DNA of 9,860 nt from Frankiales bacterium (lineage in GTDB: Bacteria; Actinomycetota; Actinomycetes; Mycobacteriales; SCTD01), in assembly GCA_025464695.1 (NCBI GenBank), contig JAODNQ010000171.1, positions 1 to 9,860 of the forward strand, given 5' to 3'. Within the stretch, counting starts at the first letter, position 1; the number at the start of each line of letters is the position of its first letter. The notes beneath the pieces are model-generated. The model saw only the letters and a program-made list of their open reading frames with translations, made no database searches and was not told where the DNA came from. The translations under genes were made by a program, and so were the position numbers. This document shows positions 607 to 9,860 of this stretch, in pieces.

Positions 607-1814
607 GCGCGCTGGCCGTCCCGGCCTTCCGCTGGCTGTACGCGGGGCAGGCGGTCAGCGCGGTCGGCGACCAGGTCTTCCCGGTGACGGTGGCCGTCCT
701 CGTGCTGGACGGCGGAGGCAGTGCCGGCGAGCTGGGCCTCGTGCTCGCCGCCCGCTTCGCCGCCCTGGTGCTGTTCAGCCTGCTCGGGGGCGTCTGGGCC
801 GACCGGCTGCCACGGCGTCGCGTCATGCTGTCGGCCGACCTGCTGCGGCTCGCCGCGGTGCTCGGGCTGGTGGTCGCGGGCACAGCGAGCACCCCGGTGC
901 TGGCCGTCCTGGTGTTCGCCGTCGGCGCCGGCGAGGCCTTCTTCCGCCCCGCGTTCGGGGCGCTGCTGCCGTCGGTGCTGCCGCCCTCCCTCCTGCCCTC
1001 CGGCAACGCCCTGGCCTCCAGCACGCACCAGCTCGCCCAGGTGGTCGGGCCGGGCCTGGCCGGTCTGCTCGTGGCCGCCGCCGGCGTCCGGGCGGGCTTC
1101 CTGTTCGACGCCGCCACCTTCGCCACCAGCGCCCTGACCCTGCTGCGGGTGCACGAGGAGCCGCACGTGCCTGCGCCCCGCGCCCGGGTGCTCCGCGAGG
1201 TCGCGGACGGGGTCCGGGCCGTCCGCGACCGCTCCTGGATCGCCGCCTGCCTGGTCATGTTCAGCGTCTACATGCTGGTGGTCGGCGCCCCCGTGCAGGT
1301 CCTGCTGCCCGTGACCGTCCGCGACACCACCGGCGAGACGGCGACCTACGGCGTGGTGCTCGCCCTCGGCGCCGTCGGCGGGCTGCTCGGCGCCTGGGCC
1401 GCCACCCGGCTGCCCGCCGCCACCCGCGGCCGCACCGCGGTCCTCGCGACGTCCCTGTGCGCCGCCGAGCCGCTGGCGCTGCTGCTCGAGGCGCCCCTGC
1501 CGGTCCTGTGCGCCGCGTGGGCGGTGTCGTCGGCCGGGATCGGGCTGTTCGTCGTCGCCTGGGAGAGCTCTCTGCAGGCCGACGTGCCGCCCGCGCTGCT
1601 GGCCCGGGTGGTCTCGCTGGACTGGATGATGAGCTTCGCGCTCTACCCGCTCGGCCTCGCCCTGACGGGCCCGGTCGTGCACGCCGTCGGGCGGGGACCG
1701 GTGCTCGTCACGGCCGTCGTGCTCGCCCTCGGCCTGCCGCTGCTCGTGCTGGGCGTGCCCGGCGTGCGGGAGTTCCGCACGCTCCCGGCTACGGCGTCGT
1801 CGGCGCCACGTTGA
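603..1814 (+). CDS. MFS transporter, MFS_3 / EntS-like exporter
   Basis: This 403-residue integral membrane protein is rich in Leu, Val and Ala stretches consistent with about 12 helices, the usual size of the major facilitator superfamily. The first helix carries the S-x-x-G-D motif (residues 19-23) of the MFS_3/EntS-like branch. The loop between helices 2 and 3 carries motif [13 protein letters not shown] (62-73). Members export small molecules such as drugs or siderophores by proton antiport; the substrate cannot be read from sequence. The GTG start overlaps the stop of the upstream regulator by four bases, so the two are co-expressed and the regulator probably senses a substrate of this pump. 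The last 26 bases overlap the 3' end of the convergent dcd gene. The C-terminal tail is short and ends in a Thr/Ser/Ala-rich segment. Confidence 0.87.
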
Positions 1815-3414
1815 ACCGCAGGTGCGACTTGCTCGCCGTCGGGCCCCGCTGACCCTGGTAGCGGGAGCCGTAGCGCTCGCTGCCGTAGGGGCTCTCGGCG
1901 GGGGAGCTCAGCGGCAGCACGCAGACCTGGCCGATCTTCATGCCCGGGTAGAGCTTGATCGGCAGGTTCGCGACGTTGCTCAGCTCGAGGGTGACGTGGC
2001 CGGAGAACCCGGGGTCGATGAAGCCGGCCGTCGAGTGGGTGAGGAGCCCGAGGCGGCCGAGGGAGCTGTTGTGGGTCGGCACGTAGGTGCGCCCGACCAG
2101 GAACATGCCGCTCGGAGCAGCCACCTGGATGCAGCGCACCGGGACGGAGGACAGCGGGCGCACGGCCACCACGGCGCGGTGCCGGGACTGCCGCAGCTTC
2201 GGTGCCAGGCGGTCGAGCTTGCGCTGCAGGCGGAAGACCGGGAGGTGGGGGACGAACTTGACCTGGTAGGCCGGGGAGCACTCGACGCCGTAGAGCGTGA
2301 CCCGCTTCTTGCGCTTGACCGGGCGCAGGCCCAGCGACGCCGCCAGCTCGACCACGGCGTCGGACAGGTGCTCGAGGGTCGAGACGAACTCGCACCGGCC
2401 GAGCGTGTCGGCGTAGCCGTCGCTGTCCATGAGTCCCTGCAGCAGGGCGAGCCGCTGGTCGTAGCCCGCGGTGAGGTACTGCTGCGGGACGTGCTTGTCG
2501 CCGAGCAGCCCCTCGGCCCGGAGCACGGAGTTCAGCCCGGCGTCGGGCGCGTACCGCCCCGCGGCGTCGCGCGCCCGGTCCTCGGGACGACCGCCGACGC
2601 GCCAGCCGTACGGCGCGCTGGTCCGGTGCACGTCGTAGCCGGCCGCCCGGACCTCGTCGACGACCTGCGCGTCCGCGGTGGTGACCGTCGCGCACGACGT
2701 CGTCCCGTCGCCCAGCCAGACGCCCAGCACGTAGGGGTCGACGGGGAGGTCGTCACGGTCGGCGTACTGGGCCGGACCGGCCATCGCGACGTGGTGGTTC
2801 CACTCGCGGCCCGCCCGCAGCGTCGCGGCCAGCTGCTCGGTCGTCACGGAGCGGGCGACGGACGCGTGCCCACCGCGGACGCGCACGCGCTCGGCCTTGG
2901 TCGTCGTCACCCACAGGTGCTGGGCGTCAGCGACGAAGCGGGAGCCGTCGGACAGCAGGACCTCGAAGCAGGGGCGGTCGGTCATGACGTCGGTGGCGGC
3001 CACGACGCGGGTGGGGGCCCCGGTCTCGTCGAAGACCTCGTCCCCGACCTCGAGGTGCTCCATGGTCGTCCAGCCCCACGGTGTGGGGACCTCGGTGTCG
3101 AGCCCGAGCGCCTTCCCCTCCAGGCGGGCGGCGAGGTCGTCGCCCAGGCTGATCACCTCGAGGGTCGACCCGAGGACGAACTCGCCGGGGTGCAGCACGA
3201 ACGGCTCGTCGCCGACCGCCTCCACCAGCTCGGTGAGGTCGTCCTGCGCCGTCGCGGGGTCGATGTGGGTGTAGCGGTGGTTGGCGAAGACCCGGAACCA
3301 CCGGTCCAGCCGGACGTCGATGCTGCTGGGCTGCACCATCGCCTCGTCGTACGGCGCCAGGCCGAGACGACCGGAGGCGAGGGCGGCCTTGAGGTCGCGG
3401 TCGGAGAGCAGCAC
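1789..3414 (-). CDS. dcd: dCTP deaminase (probably bifunctional dCTP deaminase/dUTPase) precursor containing an intein
   Basis: The enzyme deaminates dCTP in the cytosol to feed dTTP synthesis. The Mycobacterium tuberculosis-type enzyme also hydrolyses the product to dUMP, and this protein resembles that type closely ([44 protein letters not shown]). The precursor has 541 residues: N-extein 1-101, intein of 348 residues, C-extein of 92. The spliced product is 193 residues, close to the roughly 190 of the mycobacterial enzyme. In mature numbering, S102, R106 and E129 align with E. coli catalytic residues Ser111, Arg115 and Glu138. The intein splits the protein between K101 and S102, so no active site exists before splicing. 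GTG at 3414 matches the family N-terminus (LLSDRDL). Another GTG lies two codons upstream at 3420. No ribosome site is visible, and a -10 box placed 7 bases before 3414 suggests a leaderless message. The gene lies divergent to tRNA-Gly, and I recall the same pairing in mycobacteria. Confidence 0.95.
2068..3111 (-). mobile_element. Class 3 intein with LAGLIDADG homing endonuclease, inserted in dcd
   Basis: This in-frame 348-residue element starts with Ala1 ([11 protein letters not shown]) and ends THN before extein Ser+1. Block A is degenerate for the usual Cys/Ser nucleophile. Block B reads AQHLW with His65 and Trp67. Block F reads VRCIQV with Cys327 where most inteins have Asp. Block G reads PTHN with Thr346, His347 and Asn348. 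Trp67, Cys327 and Thr346 form the W-C-T triplet that marks class 3 inteins, in which the block F cysteine makes the first attack instead of residue 1. The endonuclease region has both LAGLIDADG motifs: LGVWLGDG (129-136) and [10 protein letters not shown] (223-232). Each retains its acidic residue, so homing activity may be intact. Codon usage looks like that of the host gene, which argues against very recent arrival from a low-GC source. Splicing and homing activity are inferred from motifs. Confidence 0.93.
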
Positions 3415-3480: not shown

Positions 3481-3554
3481 GCGGGCGTAGCACAATGGTA
3501 GTGCGCTTGCTTCCCAAGCAAGACACGCGAGTTCGATTCTCGTCGCCCGCTCCA
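3481..3554 (+). tRNA. tRNA-Gly (anticodon CCC), CCA encoded
   Basis: The full cloverleaf can be drawn. The acceptor stem is GCGGGCG with CGCCCGC (3544-3550), followed by discriminator T and an encoded CCA (3552-3554). The D arm is GCAC/GTGC around AATGGTA. The anticodon stem is CTTGC/GCAAG with loop TTCCCAA, so the anticodon is CCC. A 4-base variable loop follows, then a T arm with loop TTCGATT. The U at the discriminator position and the AATGGTA D loop are typical of bacterial tRNA-Gly. Anticodon CCC reads GGG codons, which are frequent in GC-rich genomes. Confidence 0.97.
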
Positions 3555-3778: not shown

Positions 3779-5935
3779 ATGGCCCGGAGCGACGCGCGCG
3801 ACCCCCGAGCGGCTGCCGGCCCCAAGCGGCGCACCGCCACGGCGGCGCCCCGGCAACGCACCCTGGTGCAGGTCCTGGACCGCGCCGTGCGCGAGGTCGA
3901 CGCCGTCGTGCAGTCGGGCCGCCAGCGCCCCGCCACGCGCAGCACCTTCCAGGCGTCCGCCCTGCTCATCCGGCACGAGCGCGCGCGGCTGCAGACGGCC
4001 GAGCTGTCCGAGGCCCGCCGCACCGCCGCCCTCAAGGACCTCGACGCCGTCGCGACGGTCCTCGCCCGCACCGCTGCCCGCGACGGCACGCTCCTCACGC
4101 TGCTGACCGACGAGGCCGAGCTGCTGCCCGACACCCGGACGGTGCTGGCCGACCTGCAGCGGGCCGCCGGGATCGAGGAGCCGTACCTGCCCGCAGCCCC
4201 GTCCCCGACCGGTCCCGCCCGCGCGGCCACCGCGAACGGGCGGCCGGCCGGCCAGGTCGTGCCCCAGTCGGTGGTCTCCCGGCAGCTGGCGAACCCCTTC
4301 CTCGCCCCGGACTACAGCGCGGTCGCCCCGCTGCAGCGCCCCCGCCTGCTGGCCGGCTGGGAGCTGCTGACCCCGCTGCTGCGCTCGTTCGCCGAGGCCT
4401 CCGGCGGGGCGACGTCGTGCATGCAGCTGCCCGCCCCCATCCGCTGGCGGACGCCGCCCGGCCTGGAGCTGATGCCGCACCAGGCGCAGCTCGTGGCGGC
4501 GGCCGAGGACGGTCACCGGACGTTCCTGCTGGCCGACGAGCCCGGCCTGGGCAAGACCGCGCAGGCCCTGCTGGCGGCAGAGGCCGCGGACGCCTTCCCG
4601 CTGCTCGTCGTCGTGCCGAACGTCGTCAAGACCAACTGGGCCCGCGAGGCCGCGCGCTGGACCCCGCGCCACCCCGCCACCGTCGTGCACGGCGACGGCC
4701 ACGACCTGGACGCCTTCTCCGACGTCGTCGTCGTCAACTACGAGGTGCTGGACCGGCACGCGGGGTGGCTCGGCAGCTTCGGGTTCCGCGGGATGGTCGT
4801 CGACGAGGCGCACTTCATCAAGAACAAGACCTCGCAGCGGTCGCGCCTGGTGCTGGAGCTGGCGGAGCGGATCCGCGCCCGCACCGTCCGCCCCCTGCTC
4901 ATGGCGCTCACCGGCACCCCGCTCATCAACGACGTCGACGACTTCCTGGCCATCTGGGAGTTCCTCGGCTGGGTCGACGACGACGACCCCTCGCTGGAGC
5001 TCGTCGCCCGGCTCGAGCGCAACGGGCTGACCCCCGGTGAGCCCGGCTTCTACCCGGCGGCCCGCGGGGCGGTCATCGACATGGGGATCGTCCGGCGTCG
5101 CAAGGTCGAGGTCGCGTCCGACATCCCGGCCCGCCGCATCGCCGACCTGCCCGTCGAGCTCGACGGCGCCCTGGGCCGCTCCATCCGCGACGCCGAGAAG
5201 GCCCTCGCGAAGCGGCTGGTCAAGCGCTACGACAGCGCGCTCGAGGCCCGCGACCCCGGGGCGGTGGTCGAGGGTATCGACGCCGACCTCGTGCGCAAGG
5301 TCGCCGGGTGGGAGCGCCAGGACACCCAGGGCGAGGGCGGCACCGACAACGTCTTCAGCGTCATGCGCCGCATCGGCCAGGCGAAGGCGGTCCTCGCGGC
5401 CGACTACACCGCGCAGCTGGCGCGCAACGTCGGCAAGGTGGTCCTGTTCGCCAAGCACGTCGACGTCATGGACGCCGCCGAGGAGCTGTTCACCTCGCGG
5501 GGGATCGGCCACGTGTCGGTCCGCGGCGGCCAGAGCACCACGGCGCGCCAGCGCAGCATCGACGCCTTCACGAAGGACCCCGACGTCGCCGTCGCCGTCT
5601 GCTCCCTGAGCGCCGCGGGCGTCGGGCTGAACCTGCAGGTCGCGTCCAACGTCGTCCTCGCGGAGCTGAGCTGGACCGACGCCGAGCAGACCCAGGCGAT
5701 CGACCGGGTGCACCGCATCGGGCAGGACCAGCCCGTCACCGCCTGGCGGATCATCGCCGCCCAGACGATCGACGCCCGGATCGCCGAGCTGCTCGACGAG
5801 AAGGCCGGCCTGGCCGCCCGGGCGCTCGACGGCGACGACTCCGGCGGCGCGTCCGCCGACGTCCAGCTCGAGGCGCTCGTGACCCTGCTGACCGACGCCC
5901 TGGCCGCTCGCGCCGGCCAGCAGGCCCGCTCCTGA
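3779..5935 (+). CDS. SNF2-family DNA-dependent ATPase (DEAD/DEAH helicase fold)
   Basis: This 718-residue protein is a superfamily 2 ATP-driven DNA translocase of the SNF2 type. The first RecA lobe has MPHQAQLV just before the Walker A motif DEPGLGKT (residues 253-260), the Walker B/DEAH box (342-345) and motif III TGTP (378-381) followed by LIN. The second lobe has the [17 protein letters not shown] segment, the AAGVGLNLQ motif V and the diagnostic SNF2 motif [10 protein letters not shown] (642-649). Residues 1-230 are helical and charged and match no domain I recognise. I see no zinc finger, SWIM or nuclease domain, so this looks like a stand-alone remodeller. The ATG start has a strong AGGAGGAG ribosome site (3766-3773). 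Bacterial SNF2 proteins act in DNA repair, transcription recycling or phage defence; nothing nearby decides which. It is probably transcribed alone. The family is certain; the role is unknown. Confidence 0.92.
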
Positions 5936-6004: not shown

Positions 6005-6030
6005 GTGACGGTACGGTCGCACCGCGTCAC
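6005..6030. promoter_or_regulatory. Inverted repeat around a possible -10 box before the protease gene
   Basis: GTGACG (6005-6010) and CGTCAC (6025-6030) form inverted arms, with a nested GGT/ACC pair at 6010-6012 and 6021-6023. TACGGT at 6012-6017 fits the -10 pattern and lies inside the repeat, about 35 bases before the GTG start at 6052. No -35 box is clear. It could be a promoter with an operator. Elsewhere in the 116-base gap 5936-6051 I see only the ribosome site. Confidence 0.3.
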
Positions 6031-6051
6031 GTCGCGATCCGGGAGTCCCTC

Positions 6052-7720
6052 GTGCACAAGCTCGTCGCCGGCGCCGTCCTGGTCGGTCTCGCCGGCCTCT
6101 CGGCCGCCCTGCCCGCACCGGCGCAGGCGGCCGCCCCCGGCCAGCGCGTGGTCGTCCAGTCGACGACCACCGCGGCCGACGCCGCGCGCGCCGTCCGGGC
6201 GGCGGGCGGCCGGGTCACCCGGTCGCTCCCTCGTCGACGGCGTCAGCGCCACCGTCCCGGCCGCGGCCCGGGCCCGCCTGGCGTCCGCGGCCGGCGTGCT
6301 CGCCGTCACCGACGACCTCCCGGTGGGCACGGCCGGCACCGCCGACAGCGGGGGCCAGCAGGCCGCGCTGCTCGAGACCGGGGCGGTCCCGCTGCAGAGC
6401 TCGGGGCTCGACGGCAGGGGCAGTGTGGTCGCCCTCGTCGACACCGGCATCGCCGACCTGCCCGACCTCGCCGGCCGGGTCCTGCCGGTGGCCGACCCGG
6501 ACGACCCGCGGGCCCCGGACGGCCGCTGCGTCGACTTCTCGGGCGAGAGCAGCTGCGAGGACGGCTACGGCCACGGCACGTTCGTCGCGGGGCTCATCGC
6601 CGGCACGGGCGCGAGCAGCGGCGGCACCTACCGGGGCGCGGCCCCCGGCGCCCGGCTGGTGAGCGTCAAGATCGCGGGGCGGACCGGTGCGGCCGACGTC
6701 TCCAAGGTGCTGGCCGGCATCCAGTGGGTGGTCTCCTTCCGCGAGCGCTACGGCATCGACGTCCTCAACCTCTCGCTCGGCACCGACGCCGACACCGACC
6801 CCTCGGTCGACCCGCTGGACCGGGCGGTCCAGCGCGCCACCGCCGCCGGCATCACCGTCGTCGTGGCCGCGGGCAACGCCGGGACCGCGCCGGACGGCGG
6901 CGGCACGGTGTTCAAGCCCGGCGACGACCCGAGCGTGCTGACGGTCGGCGCCGTGGACGACCTCGCCACCGGCTCCGTGCAGGACGACCGCGTGCCGGCC
7001 TTCACCAGCCGCGGGCCGACGGCGCAGGGGCTGGCCAAGCCCGACGTCGCCGCGCCGGGTGCGCACCTGGTGTCTCTCCGCGTGCCGGGGTCCTTCGTCG
7101 AGGAGTCGGCGCAGGGCGCGGGCGTCGTCGACGCCACCTACCGGCGCGGCAGCGGCAGCTCCTTCGCCACCGCGCTGGTCAGCGGCCTCGTCGCCGACCT
7201 GCACCAGGCCCACCCCGACTGGACGCCGGCCCGCCTCAAGGCGGCGGTCGTGGCCACCGCGGCACCCGGCAAGCTCGGGCAGCCGCGGGCGGTGGGCGCC
7301 GGCGTGGTCAACGCCGCCGCGGCAGTCAAGAGCTCCGCGACCGGCGCCTCCGCCGTGGGCACCGGGGAGCTCGGCACGCTCGAGGCGGCCCGCGGCACGG
7401 TCCACGTGGCGCGGACGGACTGCGGGCAGCTCGCGCAGCTGCTCGACAAGCGCTGCAGCACCGGCCTGACCGGCGAGACGACGTCGCAGGGCGGCCTCCC
7501 CCGCACGTTCGACCCGAACGCCTTCTCGGGCGCCTGGACCCCGGAGACCTGGTACTCCTCGCAGTGGTCCGGCAACAGCTGGCTCGGCAACTCCTGGCTG
7601 GGCAACAGCTGGCTCGGGAACAGCTGGCTGGGCAACAGCTGGCTCGGCGACGACTCCGGCGCCGACAGCAGCTACGGCACCCCGCGGCGGGGCTCGGCCT
7701 TCTACGGCACGGGCGAGTAG
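6052..7720 (+). CDS. Secreted subtilisin-family (S8) serine protease with GNSWL-repeat tail; reading frame broken near 6226-6233
   Basis: An N-terminal piece starts at GTG 6052 with a GGGAG ribosome site (6041-6045). It encodes a signal peptide (MHKLVAGAVLVGLAGL..., likely cut after PAPAQA) and the start of an I9-like propeptide (AVRAAGGRVTRSL). The propeptide continues (LVDGVSATVPAAAR) in the next frame, so the gene as given needs a shift of one base between about 6226 and 6233. The downstream frame holds a full S8 triad: Asp of DTG at 6440, His of GHGT at 6572 and Ser of GSSFA at 7160. The oxyanion Asn of AAGNAG is at 6875. Two Cys pairs may form disulfides (RCVDFSGESSC; DCGQLAQLLDKRC). After the catalytic domain comes a linker of about 100 residues, a Trp-rich tail of five GNSWL repeats, and the end SAFYGTGE. 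Repaired length is about 555 residues. If the shift is real, no secreted protease is made and this is a pseudogene; a sequencing error is equally possible. Confidence 0.85.
7571..7645 (+). repeat. Five tandem 15-base units encoding GNSWL
   Basis: Units begin at 7571, 7586, 7601, 7616 and 7631, each coding Gly-Asn-Ser-Trp-Leu. The amino acids are identical in all five, while the DNA varies at synonymous sites (Ser as AGC or TCC, Gly as GGC or GGG, Leu as CTC or CTG). That pattern points to selection on the peptide rather than recent slippage. A related unit, SSQWS, precedes the array and GDDSG follows it. The array forms the C-terminal tail of the secreted S8 protease. Confidence 0.95.
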
Positions 7721-7726
7721 GAGGCG

Positions 7727-9860
7727 GTGGCCGGCGACGGGGTCCCGCGCGGCAGGCAGGCGCCTGTCCTCGCGCTGGTCGCCGTCCTCGCCGCGGGAGC
7801 GGTCGCCCTCGCGGCCGCGGGCGGCACCGCCCCGGGTCCGCGCGCGGACGCCGCCCTCCCCGTCCTGGCCGGGGTGCTGTTCGCGGCGTCGCTGCTCGTC
7901 GTCCGGTTCCGCTCGGGCAAGGAGGTCGACGGCGTCACGCTGGTCGAGGCCGCGCTCGCCCCGCTGCTCTACGCCTTCGGCGGCCTCGTGGTGGTCGCGA
8001 CCGTCGCCGTGACCGAGACGGCGGTGGCGCTGGTGCGCCGCGACGAGCCTGTCAAGGGCGCCTTCAACGTCGCGCAGTGGTCGTTCGCGGCAGGGCTCGG
8101 AGCCCTCGTGGTCGACCGCGCCGGCACCGGTCCGGCCCTCGCGGTCGTGCTCGGGCTGGTCGCCGTCGGGCTGGCCAACAACGCCGCCTTCACCACGGTG
8201 CTGGCCCTGGTCGGGCGCGAGCCGCCGCGGGTCCTGCTCCGCAGCCTCGCCCCGGTGATCCTGCCCGGCTGGCTGGTCGGCTTCGGCGTCAACCTGCTGC
8301 TGGGCCTGCTGTTCGTCGCGGCCTACGAGGGCTCGCCCTGGTCGGTCGTGCTGTTCCCCGTGCCGGTGCTGGTCCTGCACCTGGCCTACCGCGGCTACGC
8401 CACCGTGCGCACCGACCGCCAGCGGCTTGCCGGGCTCCACCGCGCCTCCCGCGCGCTGGTCGCGCCCCTCGACCCCCTCGACGCCGTGCCCGCCTTCCTG
8501 CAGGAGGTCGCCGAGACGTTCGACGCGGCGACGGCGGTGCTCGTGCTGGACGGGCGGGTGCACCGGCACGACGCCCGGCCGGTGCCCGCGTGCACGGTCG
8601 GCGACCTCGGCGCGCTCGACCGCGAGCTGCTGCGGCTCGCGGAACCGGTCCGGGTGGCCCGCGGGGACGCCGGGGCGCTCGGCGAGCTGCTGCGCGGGAC
8701 CGCCGTCACCGACCTGCTGGCGGCGCCGCTGCGGGCCGACGGCGCGACGGTCGGGGCGCTGGCCGTCCTGGACCGCGCCGGCGTCGAGGGGCTCCCGACC
8801 GGGGAGCTCGACGTCCTGGCCGCGGCCGCCCGCGAGGCGCAGGCGACCCTGGCCCGGGGCCGCCTGCTGGGCGACGTCCTCGAAGAGCGCCGCAAGCTCG
8901 ACGAGCTGGTCTCGACCAGCTCCGACGGCATCGCCAGCCTCGACCCCGAGGGCGTCGTCCGCTCCTGGAACCCCGCGCTGGAGCGGCTGACCGGCCTCTC
9001 GGCGGCCGACGTCGTCGGGGTGCCCGGCGCGCTCGCGGGGCTGGCGCTGCGGACCTCCGAGGGCGCGCCGGTGTCGGTGCACGACTGGGAGACCGGGCAC
9101 CTCCCCAGCGAGCTGGCCCTCGACGCCCCGGCCGGCCCCCGCCGGGTGGTGTGCTCGTACTCCCGCGCCGAGGGCACCGACACCCTCGTGGTCGTGGCGC
9201 GCGACGTGACGCCCGCGCAGGAGTTCGCGGAGCTGCGGGCGCAGTTCGCCCGGCTGGTCGAGGCGGAGGCGGCCCAGCGGCTCGTGGTCGAGCACCTGCA
9301 GCGCGCCGTCATGCCGACCCTGCCGTCGGTCGCGGGCAGCGAGCTGGGCGTCCGCTACGTCGCCTCCGACCCGAGCGAGCCCACCGGCGGCGACCTCTAC
9401 GACTGTCAGGTGCTGCCCGACGGCACCGTGCACCTGGCGGTCGTCGACGTCGTCGGCCACGGCGTGCAGGCCACCCAGCACGCGCTGTCGGTCGCCCACA
9501 CGCTGCGCACGGTCGTGCTGGACGGCACCCCCCTCGGCGACGTCGTCGCGCGCGCGGACCTCCTGCTCGGGCGGCAGGACCCGGACCTCGTGGCCACCGT
9601 CGTGCTCGCCCGGTACACGCCCGCGACGGGCGCCCTGCAGCTCGCCGGCGGCGGCCACCCGCCGCCCCTCGTGGTCGGCGCGGACGGCACCTGCCGGCAG
9701 CTGGACGTGCCGGGCGGGCCGGTGGGCTGGCCGCTCGCCGGCTCGGACGGCGTCGTCGAGGCGGCGCTCGGGCCGGGCGACGCGCTGGTGCTCTACACCG
9801 ACGGGCTGGTCGAGGCGGAGGCGGCCCAGCGGCTCGTGGTCGAGCACCTGCAGCGCGCCG
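7727..9860 (+). CDS. Membrane-anchored GAF-PAS-SpoIIE/PP2C phosphatase (partial, runs off the right edge)
   Basis: An open frame of 711 codons continues past the window. Residues 12-225 are hydrophobic with about six or seven membrane helices, including a conserved-looking KGAFNVAQ segment (110-117). I recall similar segments in the membrane sensors of actinobacterial cyclic-di-GMP and HD proteins. Residues 240-385 look like a GAF domain. A PAS domain follows (about 390-500, with SSDGIASLDPEGVVRSWNPALERLTG). The SpoIIE-type phosphatase starts near 510: LQRAVMPTLPSV, metal-ligand GGDLYD (D556, D559), DVVGHG (D574), GGGHPPPL and YTDGLVE (D692). Such RsbU-like enzymes dephosphorylate anti-sigma antagonists or similar Ser/Thr-phosphoproteins after sensing a signal. 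GTG 7727 is the only start near the protease stop; its AGGAGG (7719-7724) overlaps that stop and is unusually close, so the start is less certain than the gene. The last 57 bases copy an internal segment, so the 3' end may be an assembly join. Confidence 0.82.
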   Translation, partial: MAGDGVPRGRQAPVLALVAVLAAGAVALAAAGGTAPGPRADAALPVLAGVLFAASLLVVRFRSGKEVDGVTLVEAALAPLLYAFGGLVVVATVAVTETAVALVRRDEPVKGAFNVAQWSFAAGLGALVVDRAGTGPALAVVLGLVAVGLANNAAFTTVLALVGREPPRVLLRSLAPVILPGWLVGFGVNLLLGLLFVAAYEGSPWSVVLFPVPVLVLHLAYRGYATVRTDRQRLAGLHRASRALVAPLDPLDAVPAFLQEVAETFDAATAVLVLDGRVHRHDARPVPACTVGDLGALDRELLRLAEPVRVARGDAGALGELLRGTAVTDLLAAPLRADGATVGALAVLDRAGVEGLPTGELDVLAAAAREAQATLARGRLLGDVLEERRKLDELVSTSSDGIASLDPEGVVRSWNPALERLTGLSAADVVGVPGALAGLALRTSEGAPVSVHDWETGHLPSELALDAPAGPRRVVCSYSRAEGTDTLVVVARDVTPAQEFAELRAQFARLVEAEAAQRLVVEHLQRAVMPTLPSVAGSELGVRYVASDPSEPTGGDLYDCQVLPDGTVHLAVVDVVGHGVQATQHALSVAHTLRTVVLDGTPLGDVVARADLLLGRQDPDLVATVVLARYTPATGALQLAGGGHPPPLVVGADGTCRQLDVPGGPVGWPLAGSDGVVEAALGPGDALVLYTDGLVEAEAAQRLVVEHLQRA
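9252..9308 (+). repeat. 57-base direct repeat, internal copy
   Basis: This stretch is identical to 9804-9860, at an in-frame distance of 552 bases. It encodes LVEAEAAQRLVVEHLQRA (residues 510-527) as the helix leading into the phosphatase domain. That is where RsbU-like proteins normally carry an xLQRxLLP motif, so this is the native copy. Confidence 0.95.
9804..9860 (+). repeat. 57-base direct repeat, terminal copy at the window edge
   Basis: Identical to 9252-9308 up to the last base of the window; the base before it differs (G versus C). It follows the YTDGLVE motif directly, where SpoIIE phosphatases normally continue with a different helix. The context is therefore foreign to this copy. 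The junction falls on a shared GGCTGGTCGAG. Either an assembly join or a tandem duplication would produce this. Confidence 0.95.

Follow-up and report, generated by a model that had tools for sequence, protein, structure and literature searches.

How does an intein come to lie in the catalytic loop of a small metabolic enzyme, and why at exactly that position? The question is raised by a high-GC stretch of 9860 bases from a Frankiales bacterium (contig JAODNQ010000171.1; the whole stretch is called the window below), in which the gene for dCTP deaminase, dcd, is interrupted by an insert in frame. An earlier note, made from the sequence alone, had read the insert as a class 3 intein in the catalytic motif of the enzyme. 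With high confidence, we hold a fuller form of that reading: the insert is a class 3 intein that has both LAGLIDADG motifs of a homing endonuclease, and it interrupts the active-site loop of a Dcd-dUTPase, probably bifunctional and apparently chromosomal, in a Frankiales-like actinobacterium.

The insert and its splicing class

The dcd product scores 183.8 bits with TIGR02274 (dCTP deaminase; cut-off 92.8), and the Mycobacterium tuberculosis Dcd structure 2qxx matches it with an E value of 4.3e-83, aligning on either side of the insert. Translation of the minus strand from 3414 to 1789 gives exactly the intein boundaries (2068-3111, 348 residues) and the insertion point between K101 and S102 that the earlier note had named. 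The intein thus covers precursor residues 102-449, and its excision in silico leaves 193 residues. The parts are as follows, all on the minus strand.

1789-3414: dcd, dCTP deaminase precursor with intein; open frame of 541 amino acids plus stop, GTG start at 3414, TAG stop at 1789
3112-3414: N-extein, Dcd residues 1-101, ending in EGK; aligns with 2qxx residues 1-101
2068-3111: class 3 intein, 348 amino acids, by phmmer and fold match
1792-2067: C-extein, Dcd residues 102-193, beginning SSLGRLG; aligns with 2qxx residues 102-186
3109-3111: Ala1; the intein has no N-terminal nucleophile
2968-2970: Cys48, at the position of the Cys48 that acts as redox partner in M. smegmatis DnaBi1
2911-2919: block B, H65-L66-W67 (H65 at 2917-2919; W67, the W of the W-C-T triplet, at 2911-2913)
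2323-2739: homing endonuclease region, intein residues 125-263
2704-2733: LAGLIDADG motif 1, intein residues 127-136, by sequence
2416-2445: LAGLIDADG motif 2, intein residues 223-232, by sequence
2131-2133: Cys327, block F position 4 (C of the triplet), putative initiating nucleophile
2068-2076: block G, T346-H347-N348 (T of the triplet, penultimate His, cyclising Asn), by alignment to solved class 3 inteins
2065-2067: Ser+1, Dcd Ser102; putative second splicing nucleophile; in the mature enzyme, a residue of the active site

To which class does the intein belong? No Cys, Ser or Thr stands at its residue 1, while Trp is found at B:12, Cys at F:4, and Thr at G:5 together with His-Asn and a nucleophilic +1 residue. 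In phmmer alignments, A1, H65, W67, C327 and THN346-348 fall on A1, H65, W67, C124 and THN143-145 of the M. chimaera DnaB1 intein (6rix, E 1.3e-27), and also on their counterparts in M. smegmatis DnaB1 (6bs8). Each residue listed by the earlier note, including Ser+1, is therefore as it was described and is matched in the solved class 3 inteins; at F:4, where the note had asked for an alignment, C327 lies on Cys124 of MchDnaB1 and no different residue is placed there. The predicted structure, built with 71 rows (the window protein and 70 of the 120 proteins introduced below), has the HINT fold, and it shares this fold with the DnaB1 class 3 inteins 6bs8, 6rix and 6riy at root-mean-square deviations of 1.2-1.5. 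H65, W67, C327, T346 and N348 are invariant across 55 related inteins. A homologue search returned 4784 proteins at E <= 0.001, of which the best 120 were listed and the remainder may include other hosts; 118 of these 120 were parsed (P0046 and P0099 were left out; the window protein is included as P0001), and none of the 118 has lost A1, HxW, the block F Cys or THN at this junction. Residue 1 of 37 relatives in hosts other than Dcd is Ala in 32, Pro in two, Gly in two and Ser in one. The class 3 assignment of the earlier note is thus upheld by the alignment to solved inteins, the fold match and the invariance of the triplet. Its remark that class 3 inteins are few is not, as a 2020 paper counts 1701 of them in NCBI nr (PMC7891396).

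Following the established class 3 chemistry, Cys327 would attack the K101-Ala1 bond to give a branched intermediate at block F, the acyl group would then be moved to Ser102 (+1), Asn348 would cyclise with the help of His347, and an O-N acyl shift would yield the 193-residue enzyme. The founders of this mechanism, the inteins of Deinococcus radiodurans Snf2 and mycobacteriophage Bethlehem DnaB with their block F branched intermediate (PMC3196547), are in other hosts and are likened to the window intein by description.

Might the block F Cys be incidental, the intein being of class 1 or class 2 and splicing being started by residue 1 (class 1) or by Ser+1 attacking the N-terminal junction (class 2)? 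Direct attack by Ser+1 is possible in principle, Cys at F:4 is also known from class 1 inteins (PMC3196547), and class 1-like inteins do occur in Dcd. Still, this is extremely unlikely: residue 1 is Ala throughout the 118 Dcd inteins, the W-C-T triplet is complete and invariant, the nearest mini-intein structures are class 3, and the class 1-like inteins of Dcd start with Cys and occupy another site (R^C in 119 of 120 listed; a caret marks the insertion point here and below).

That other site has its own history. The intein of the cyanophage vB_AphaS-CL131 Dcd (ORF069) excises itself in Escherichia coli, and such intein-bearing Dcds are known from Proteobacteria and Chloroflexi (PMC6293099). 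Like the window intein, it is placed in the active-site loop of dCTP deaminase, but it is class 1-like by sequence, with Cys at its start, Asn at its end, a +1 Cys and an HNH endonuclease, and it lies five residues downstream, at GKSTYAR^C. When the best 120 of 1456 relatives of CL131 Dcd at E <= 0.001 were taken, 119 of them, CL131 included, had the junction GK[ST][ST]x[AGS]R^C, P0141 being without GK[STC]; no class 1-like intein at the K^S site was seen among these 120. One catalytic loop has thus been settled by two intein types, five residues apart.

The other possibility to be considered is that the insert is an assembly chimera or an unrelated open frame inside dcd, as the contig is short (9860 bases) and carries a 62-base repeat at its end. 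Many other contigs and genomes, however, have this junction, and a separate contig of a metagenome-assembled genome (P0002; by length, that of L097 below) encodes a protein that is 93% identical and carries the insert as well, so chance and a local assembly fault can be discounted; the chance of this explanation is practically negligible.

The host enzyme

S102 of the window Dcd corresponds to Ser102 of M. tuberculosis Dcd in the 2qxx alignment. For the E. coli structure 1xs1, the alignment running from chain residue 110 at query residue 449 puts S102 on Ser111. Ser111 is the catalytic Ser of E. coli Dcd, the residue with which S102 had been aligned in the earlier note. In M. tuberculosis Dcd, Ser102, Asp119 and Gln148 are indispensable for dUTPase activity (PMC3360063, citing Helt et al.), and bifunctional enzymes are marked by an aromatic residue that replaces an Arg of the monofunctional ones (PMC3360063). 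In the numbering of the spliced product, the window Dcd has S102, F117, D119, E129 and Q148. The presence of F117, D119 and Q148 makes it probable that the host is a bifunctional dCTP deaminase-dUTPase, which would make dUMP directly from dCTP. The earlier naming of the host as a dCTP deaminase stands by its family score, while the bifunctional name fits it better.

Ser102 would then serve twice, as the +1 nucleophile and as an active-site residue, and the same double use is described for the P-loop Ser of M. smegmatis DnaB (PMC6195587). The active-site loop is split until splicing has taken place and the precursor should therefore be inactive, so it was soundly inferred in the earlier note that deaminase activity depends fully on splicing.

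Why this site?

Most of the related class 3 inteins in hosts other than Dcd (31 of 37) follow Gly-Lys, and in all 37 the +1 residue is Ser, Thr or Cys. Seventeen of these 37 hosts are DnaB helicases by Pfam, with the site in Walker A (GK^STLG or similar); among the remaining 20 rows, neither DnaB nor Dcd, 14 follow Gly-Lys. Insertion between the invariant Lys and Thr has been called the classic P-loop insertion (PMC5050341). The Dcd loop reads EGK^SSLG, and no second GK[STC] was found in any of 219 parsed Dcd rows; these rows were themselves picked by GK[STC] and some are copies of one locus, so that only the absence of a second motif is informative. Dcd is not an ATPase, and its loop therefore looks like a mimic of the preferred P-loop site. 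The dcd site would have been open to this intein family since the loop reads Gly-Lys^Ser, like the P-loops that house most of the sampled relatives. The likeliest explanation of why the Dcd site was taken is this GK^S likeness, which is an account of site choice and not a demonstrated transfer.

Does the likeness extend to DNA? The consensus cores, GGgAAG^TCCTCGCTcGGC and GGCAAG^TCGACGCTGGGc, are close. Of 30 flanking bases, the mean number identical is 15.8 between Dcd and DnaB, 11.9 between Dcd and other hosts, and 22.3 between Dcd genes with and without the intein. A strict DNA pattern of the shared core site gave three matches in two of eight genomes, and exact DNA identity of the sites is thus not general. 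The DNA flanks support the site likeness only in part.

How do the relatives at P-loops and elsewhere compare with the window intein? The DnaB-b (DnaB1) class 3 inteins of M. smegmatis and M. chimaera (6bs8, 6rix, 6riy) share with it Ala1, HxW, the block F Cys, THN and Cys48, and that of M. smegmatis likewise lies before an active-site Ser doubling as +1, in the P-loop (PMC6195587). They differ in that the host is an ATPase helicase and that the solved forms have 139-146 residues, whereas the window intein keeps its LAGLIDADG domain. The class 3-type inteins in the large terminase subunit (TerL) of mycobacteriophages Nebkiss, Violet and Eureka (L139, L144 and L145) have the W-C-T residues, a +1 Ser or Thr and a length similar to that of the window intein, but their host is a phage terminase, their identity to the window intein is 38-39%, and only that of Eureka follows Gly-Lys. 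Class 3-type inteins after Gly-Lys were also seen in RecG-like helicases (L131 and L133; RecG domains were checked in L131 only).

Class 3 inteins thereby gain a metabolic, non-ATPase enzyme among their hosts. With class 3 and class 1-like inteins only five residues from each other in one Dcd loop, and a class 3 site that copies the P-loop motif Gly-Lys^Ser, Dcd offers a clean natural set for the question of how inteins choose their sites.

Homing endonuclease and signs of splicing

The endonuclease region matches PI-SceI (1dfa) by phmmer with an E value of 0.00013 and PF05204 with 25.7 bits against a cut-off of 21.1, and it holds two LAGLIDADG motifs with acidic ends. Such an endonuclease would spread the element into empty dcd alleles. 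A LAGLIDADG motif is deleted or altered in 17 of the 118 parsed Dcd inteins when variants such as VFGIWLGDG are taken as motif present (in one of the 17, P0095, the Asp is kept and the Gly alone is lost), and the class 3 residues are intact in all 118. This retention of splicing residues where endonuclease motifs are not retained argues for active splicing. The 118 inteins have 273-353 residues. The shortest Dcd class 3 intein seen, at L006:8304-8846, has only 181 residues with every splicing residue present, and is a natural mini-intein. Dcd inteins that have lost endonuclease motifs, down to this length, are compact and might serve as class 3 inteins in protein engineering.

Could the intein instead have decayed and no longer splice, leaving Dcd dead, like the Arthrobacter FB24 Arth_1007 element? 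Mutagenesis screens suggest that the M. tuberculosis enzyme is dispensable (PMC3360063), and a dead copy might therefore be tolerated. Yet the splicing residues are all intact in the window and in its 118 parsed relatives, even in the 17 whose endonuclease motif is gone or changed, and Arth_1007 is without the block F Cys (PMC3196547). Moreover, the ratio of nonsynonymous to synonymous substitution rates (dN/dS) between the window gene and its closest relative, L097, is low, 0.03 and 0.11 in the exteins and 0.09 to 0.15 in the intein. Decay is thus highly unlikely.

Distribution and history

The Dcd intein is found in 15 of 397 genomes in a sample of one order, six of the 15 (G001-G006) having been found before sampling. 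It is found in one of 66 genomes of the class of G705, namely G705 itself, and in five of 299 genomes of the class of G663 (E <= 1e-60, G663 included; four of the five parsed); either class may coincide with that of the main group. The intein tree was built from class 3-type rows only, 31 from Dcd (18 from the window and loci, 13 from the 118 parsed proteins) and 37 from other hosts, and in it the Dcd inteins form a single clade (support 100/99). On a tree of host Dcds, made from 105 of the 219 parsed rows (34 with and 71 without the intein), presence and absence require seven changes, at least five of them on well-supported branches; long basal branches make the deepest part of this tree unsure. 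The single intein clade and the seven changes suggest one origin of the Dcd intein followed by repeated gain or loss. In the intein tree, from which the M. smegmatis and M. chimaera DnaB1 sequences are absent, DnaB and Dcd inteins are in separate clades. As a sign of a direct jump from DnaB to Dcd, nesting of the Dcd inteins in the DnaB clade was sought and not found.

Is there a mobile carrier? A tblastn search with the Dcd-intein protein gave no single place covering 80% of it in 50,697 phage records, and one of 72,556 plasmid records reached 80%, the listed match being annotated as an ATP-binding protein; some match was present in 807 phage records, nine of which were examined, and in 98 plasmid records, three of which were examined. 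A scan of viral_contigs with the Dcd intein matched ten stretches, none of which was confirmed. In these searches, no phage was thus found to carry the Dcd intein.

The earlier note could recall no description of a class 3 intein at this site. No report of a class 3 Dcd intein was found in the open-access PMC literature, and the word "deaminase" is absent from the accessible parts of PMC7891396, PMC7664689, PMC5222942, PMC3196547 and PMC5050341. In databases, on the other hand, 118 parsed clusters, that of the window included, are already present. What seems to be new is Dcd as a host and site for the known class 3, the family itself being already deposited.

Several observations weigh against the reading given here. 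Splicing, initiation by Cys327 and cleavage by the endonuclease are all predictions from sequence. PF14890 (Intein_splicing) gives no match to the window protein, LAGLIDADG_3 (PF14528) scores 20.5 where Pfam asks for 22.5, and the model is poor in the C-extein, with a predicted local distance difference test score (pLDDT) below 50 at 450-465 and 501-541. When all 105 pairs of 15 chosen genes are compared, dN/dS is higher than for the window and L097, with medians of 0.28-0.41 and maxima of 0.79-0.97 in the intein parts and medians of 0.22 and 0.27 in the exteins; dS is hard to measure in such GC-rich genes. As for the site, six of the 37 non-Dcd rows are not after Gly-Lys. As for history, 16 of the 17 DnaB rows are in a clade of their own (97/98), with L126 elsewhere on a long branch, and a sister relation of Dcd and DnaB inteins is neither supported nor rejected by the approximately unbiased test (p 0.474).

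Possible redox regulation

Does the intein do anything for its host? In M. smegmatis DnaBi1, H2O2 causes a disulfide between Cys48 and the catalytic Cys118, by which splicing is blocked reversibly (PMC6195587). Although Cys48 is termed non-conserved in that paper, it is conserved in the present sample: every one of the 118 Dcd inteins has it, as do 33 of the 37 class 3 rows from other hosts. By analogy, oxidation might pair Cys48 with Cys327 and so stall splicing, and the making of dUMP from dCTP would then wait for the return of reducing conditions. Besides the DnaBi1 precedent and the conservation of Cys48, the presence of another class 3-like intein would fit such a switch: one is found in 10 of 15 genomes with the Dcd intein against 88 of 382 without it (Fisher p 0.0006, hand-counted and uncorrected for kinship), and its host is DnaB in the four of the ten genomes checked (L090, L091, L092 and L093). 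On the other hand, Cys48 also matters for DnaBi1 splicing as such (PMC6195587), and its conservation may therefore be structural; the patchy presence of the intein argues against a needed regulator, and there are further cysteines, at 140, 240 and 278, whose effect could be a different one. A redox switch is thus a tentative proposal and rather unlikely, and a purely selfish element is a simpler view than a redox response in which replication and nucleotide supply are joined.

It is quite improbable, though conceivable, that the whole chain of events holds together: that a P-loop class 3 lineage moved once into the non-ATPase Dcd because its loop has the same GK^S(S/T)LG, shared in protein and partly in DNA, and is now kept as a Cys48-Cys327 redox switch that holds back dUMP synthesis under oxidative stress, in many genomes beside a second class 3 intein (DnaB in the four checked). 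With the Cys pair of the redox-controlled DnaB1 conserved, Dcd is a small enzyme on which one can ask whether intein splicing is regulatory. On contig C17 of G006, a DnaB class 3-type intein (L093) was observed about 18 kb from the Dcd mini-intein (L087).

Gene neighbourhood

Genes for a regulator, a transporter of the major facilitator superfamily (MFS), a helicase, a subtilase and a phosphatase are the neighbours of dcd, and the intein-bearing dcd, lying among such ordinary genes, looks like a chromosomal gene. One further feature adjoins it.

3481-3554, plus strand: tRNA-Gly(CCC), outside the intein, on the strand opposite to dcd

In a scan of 19 loci, tRNA-Gly(CCC) was near dcd in 12, six with the intein (L002, L003, L004, L005, L006 and L097) and six without it (L008, L009, L010, L011, L012 and L018, about 450 bases off in the last), and none was found near dcd in the other seven (L001, L050, L098, L100, L101, L103 and L104). 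It is on the opposite strand in the window, L004, L005 and L009, on the same strand upstream in L002 and L097, and downstream in L003. A fixed synteny of tRNA-Gly(CCC) and dcd was rejected, since seven of 19 loci gave none and strand and side vary. The tRNA sequence is identical in the window and in L097 (1291-1362), with opposite strands relative to dcd.

The remaining observations concern the rest of the window. A 62-base stretch at 9247-9308, in the SpoIIE-type phosphatase gene, is repeated with 97% identity at 9799-9860, the contig end, and may be an assembly effect. The genes for the ArsR/HTH_20-type regulator and the MFS transporter, at 115-1814, overlap by a few bases, and an SNF2-related helicase gene (3779-5935) is near dcd and the tRNA-Gly gene. 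The subtilase gene (6005-7720, PF00082) has about five copies of a 15-base unit at 7570-7648, which give an NSWLG repeat near the C-terminus of its product.
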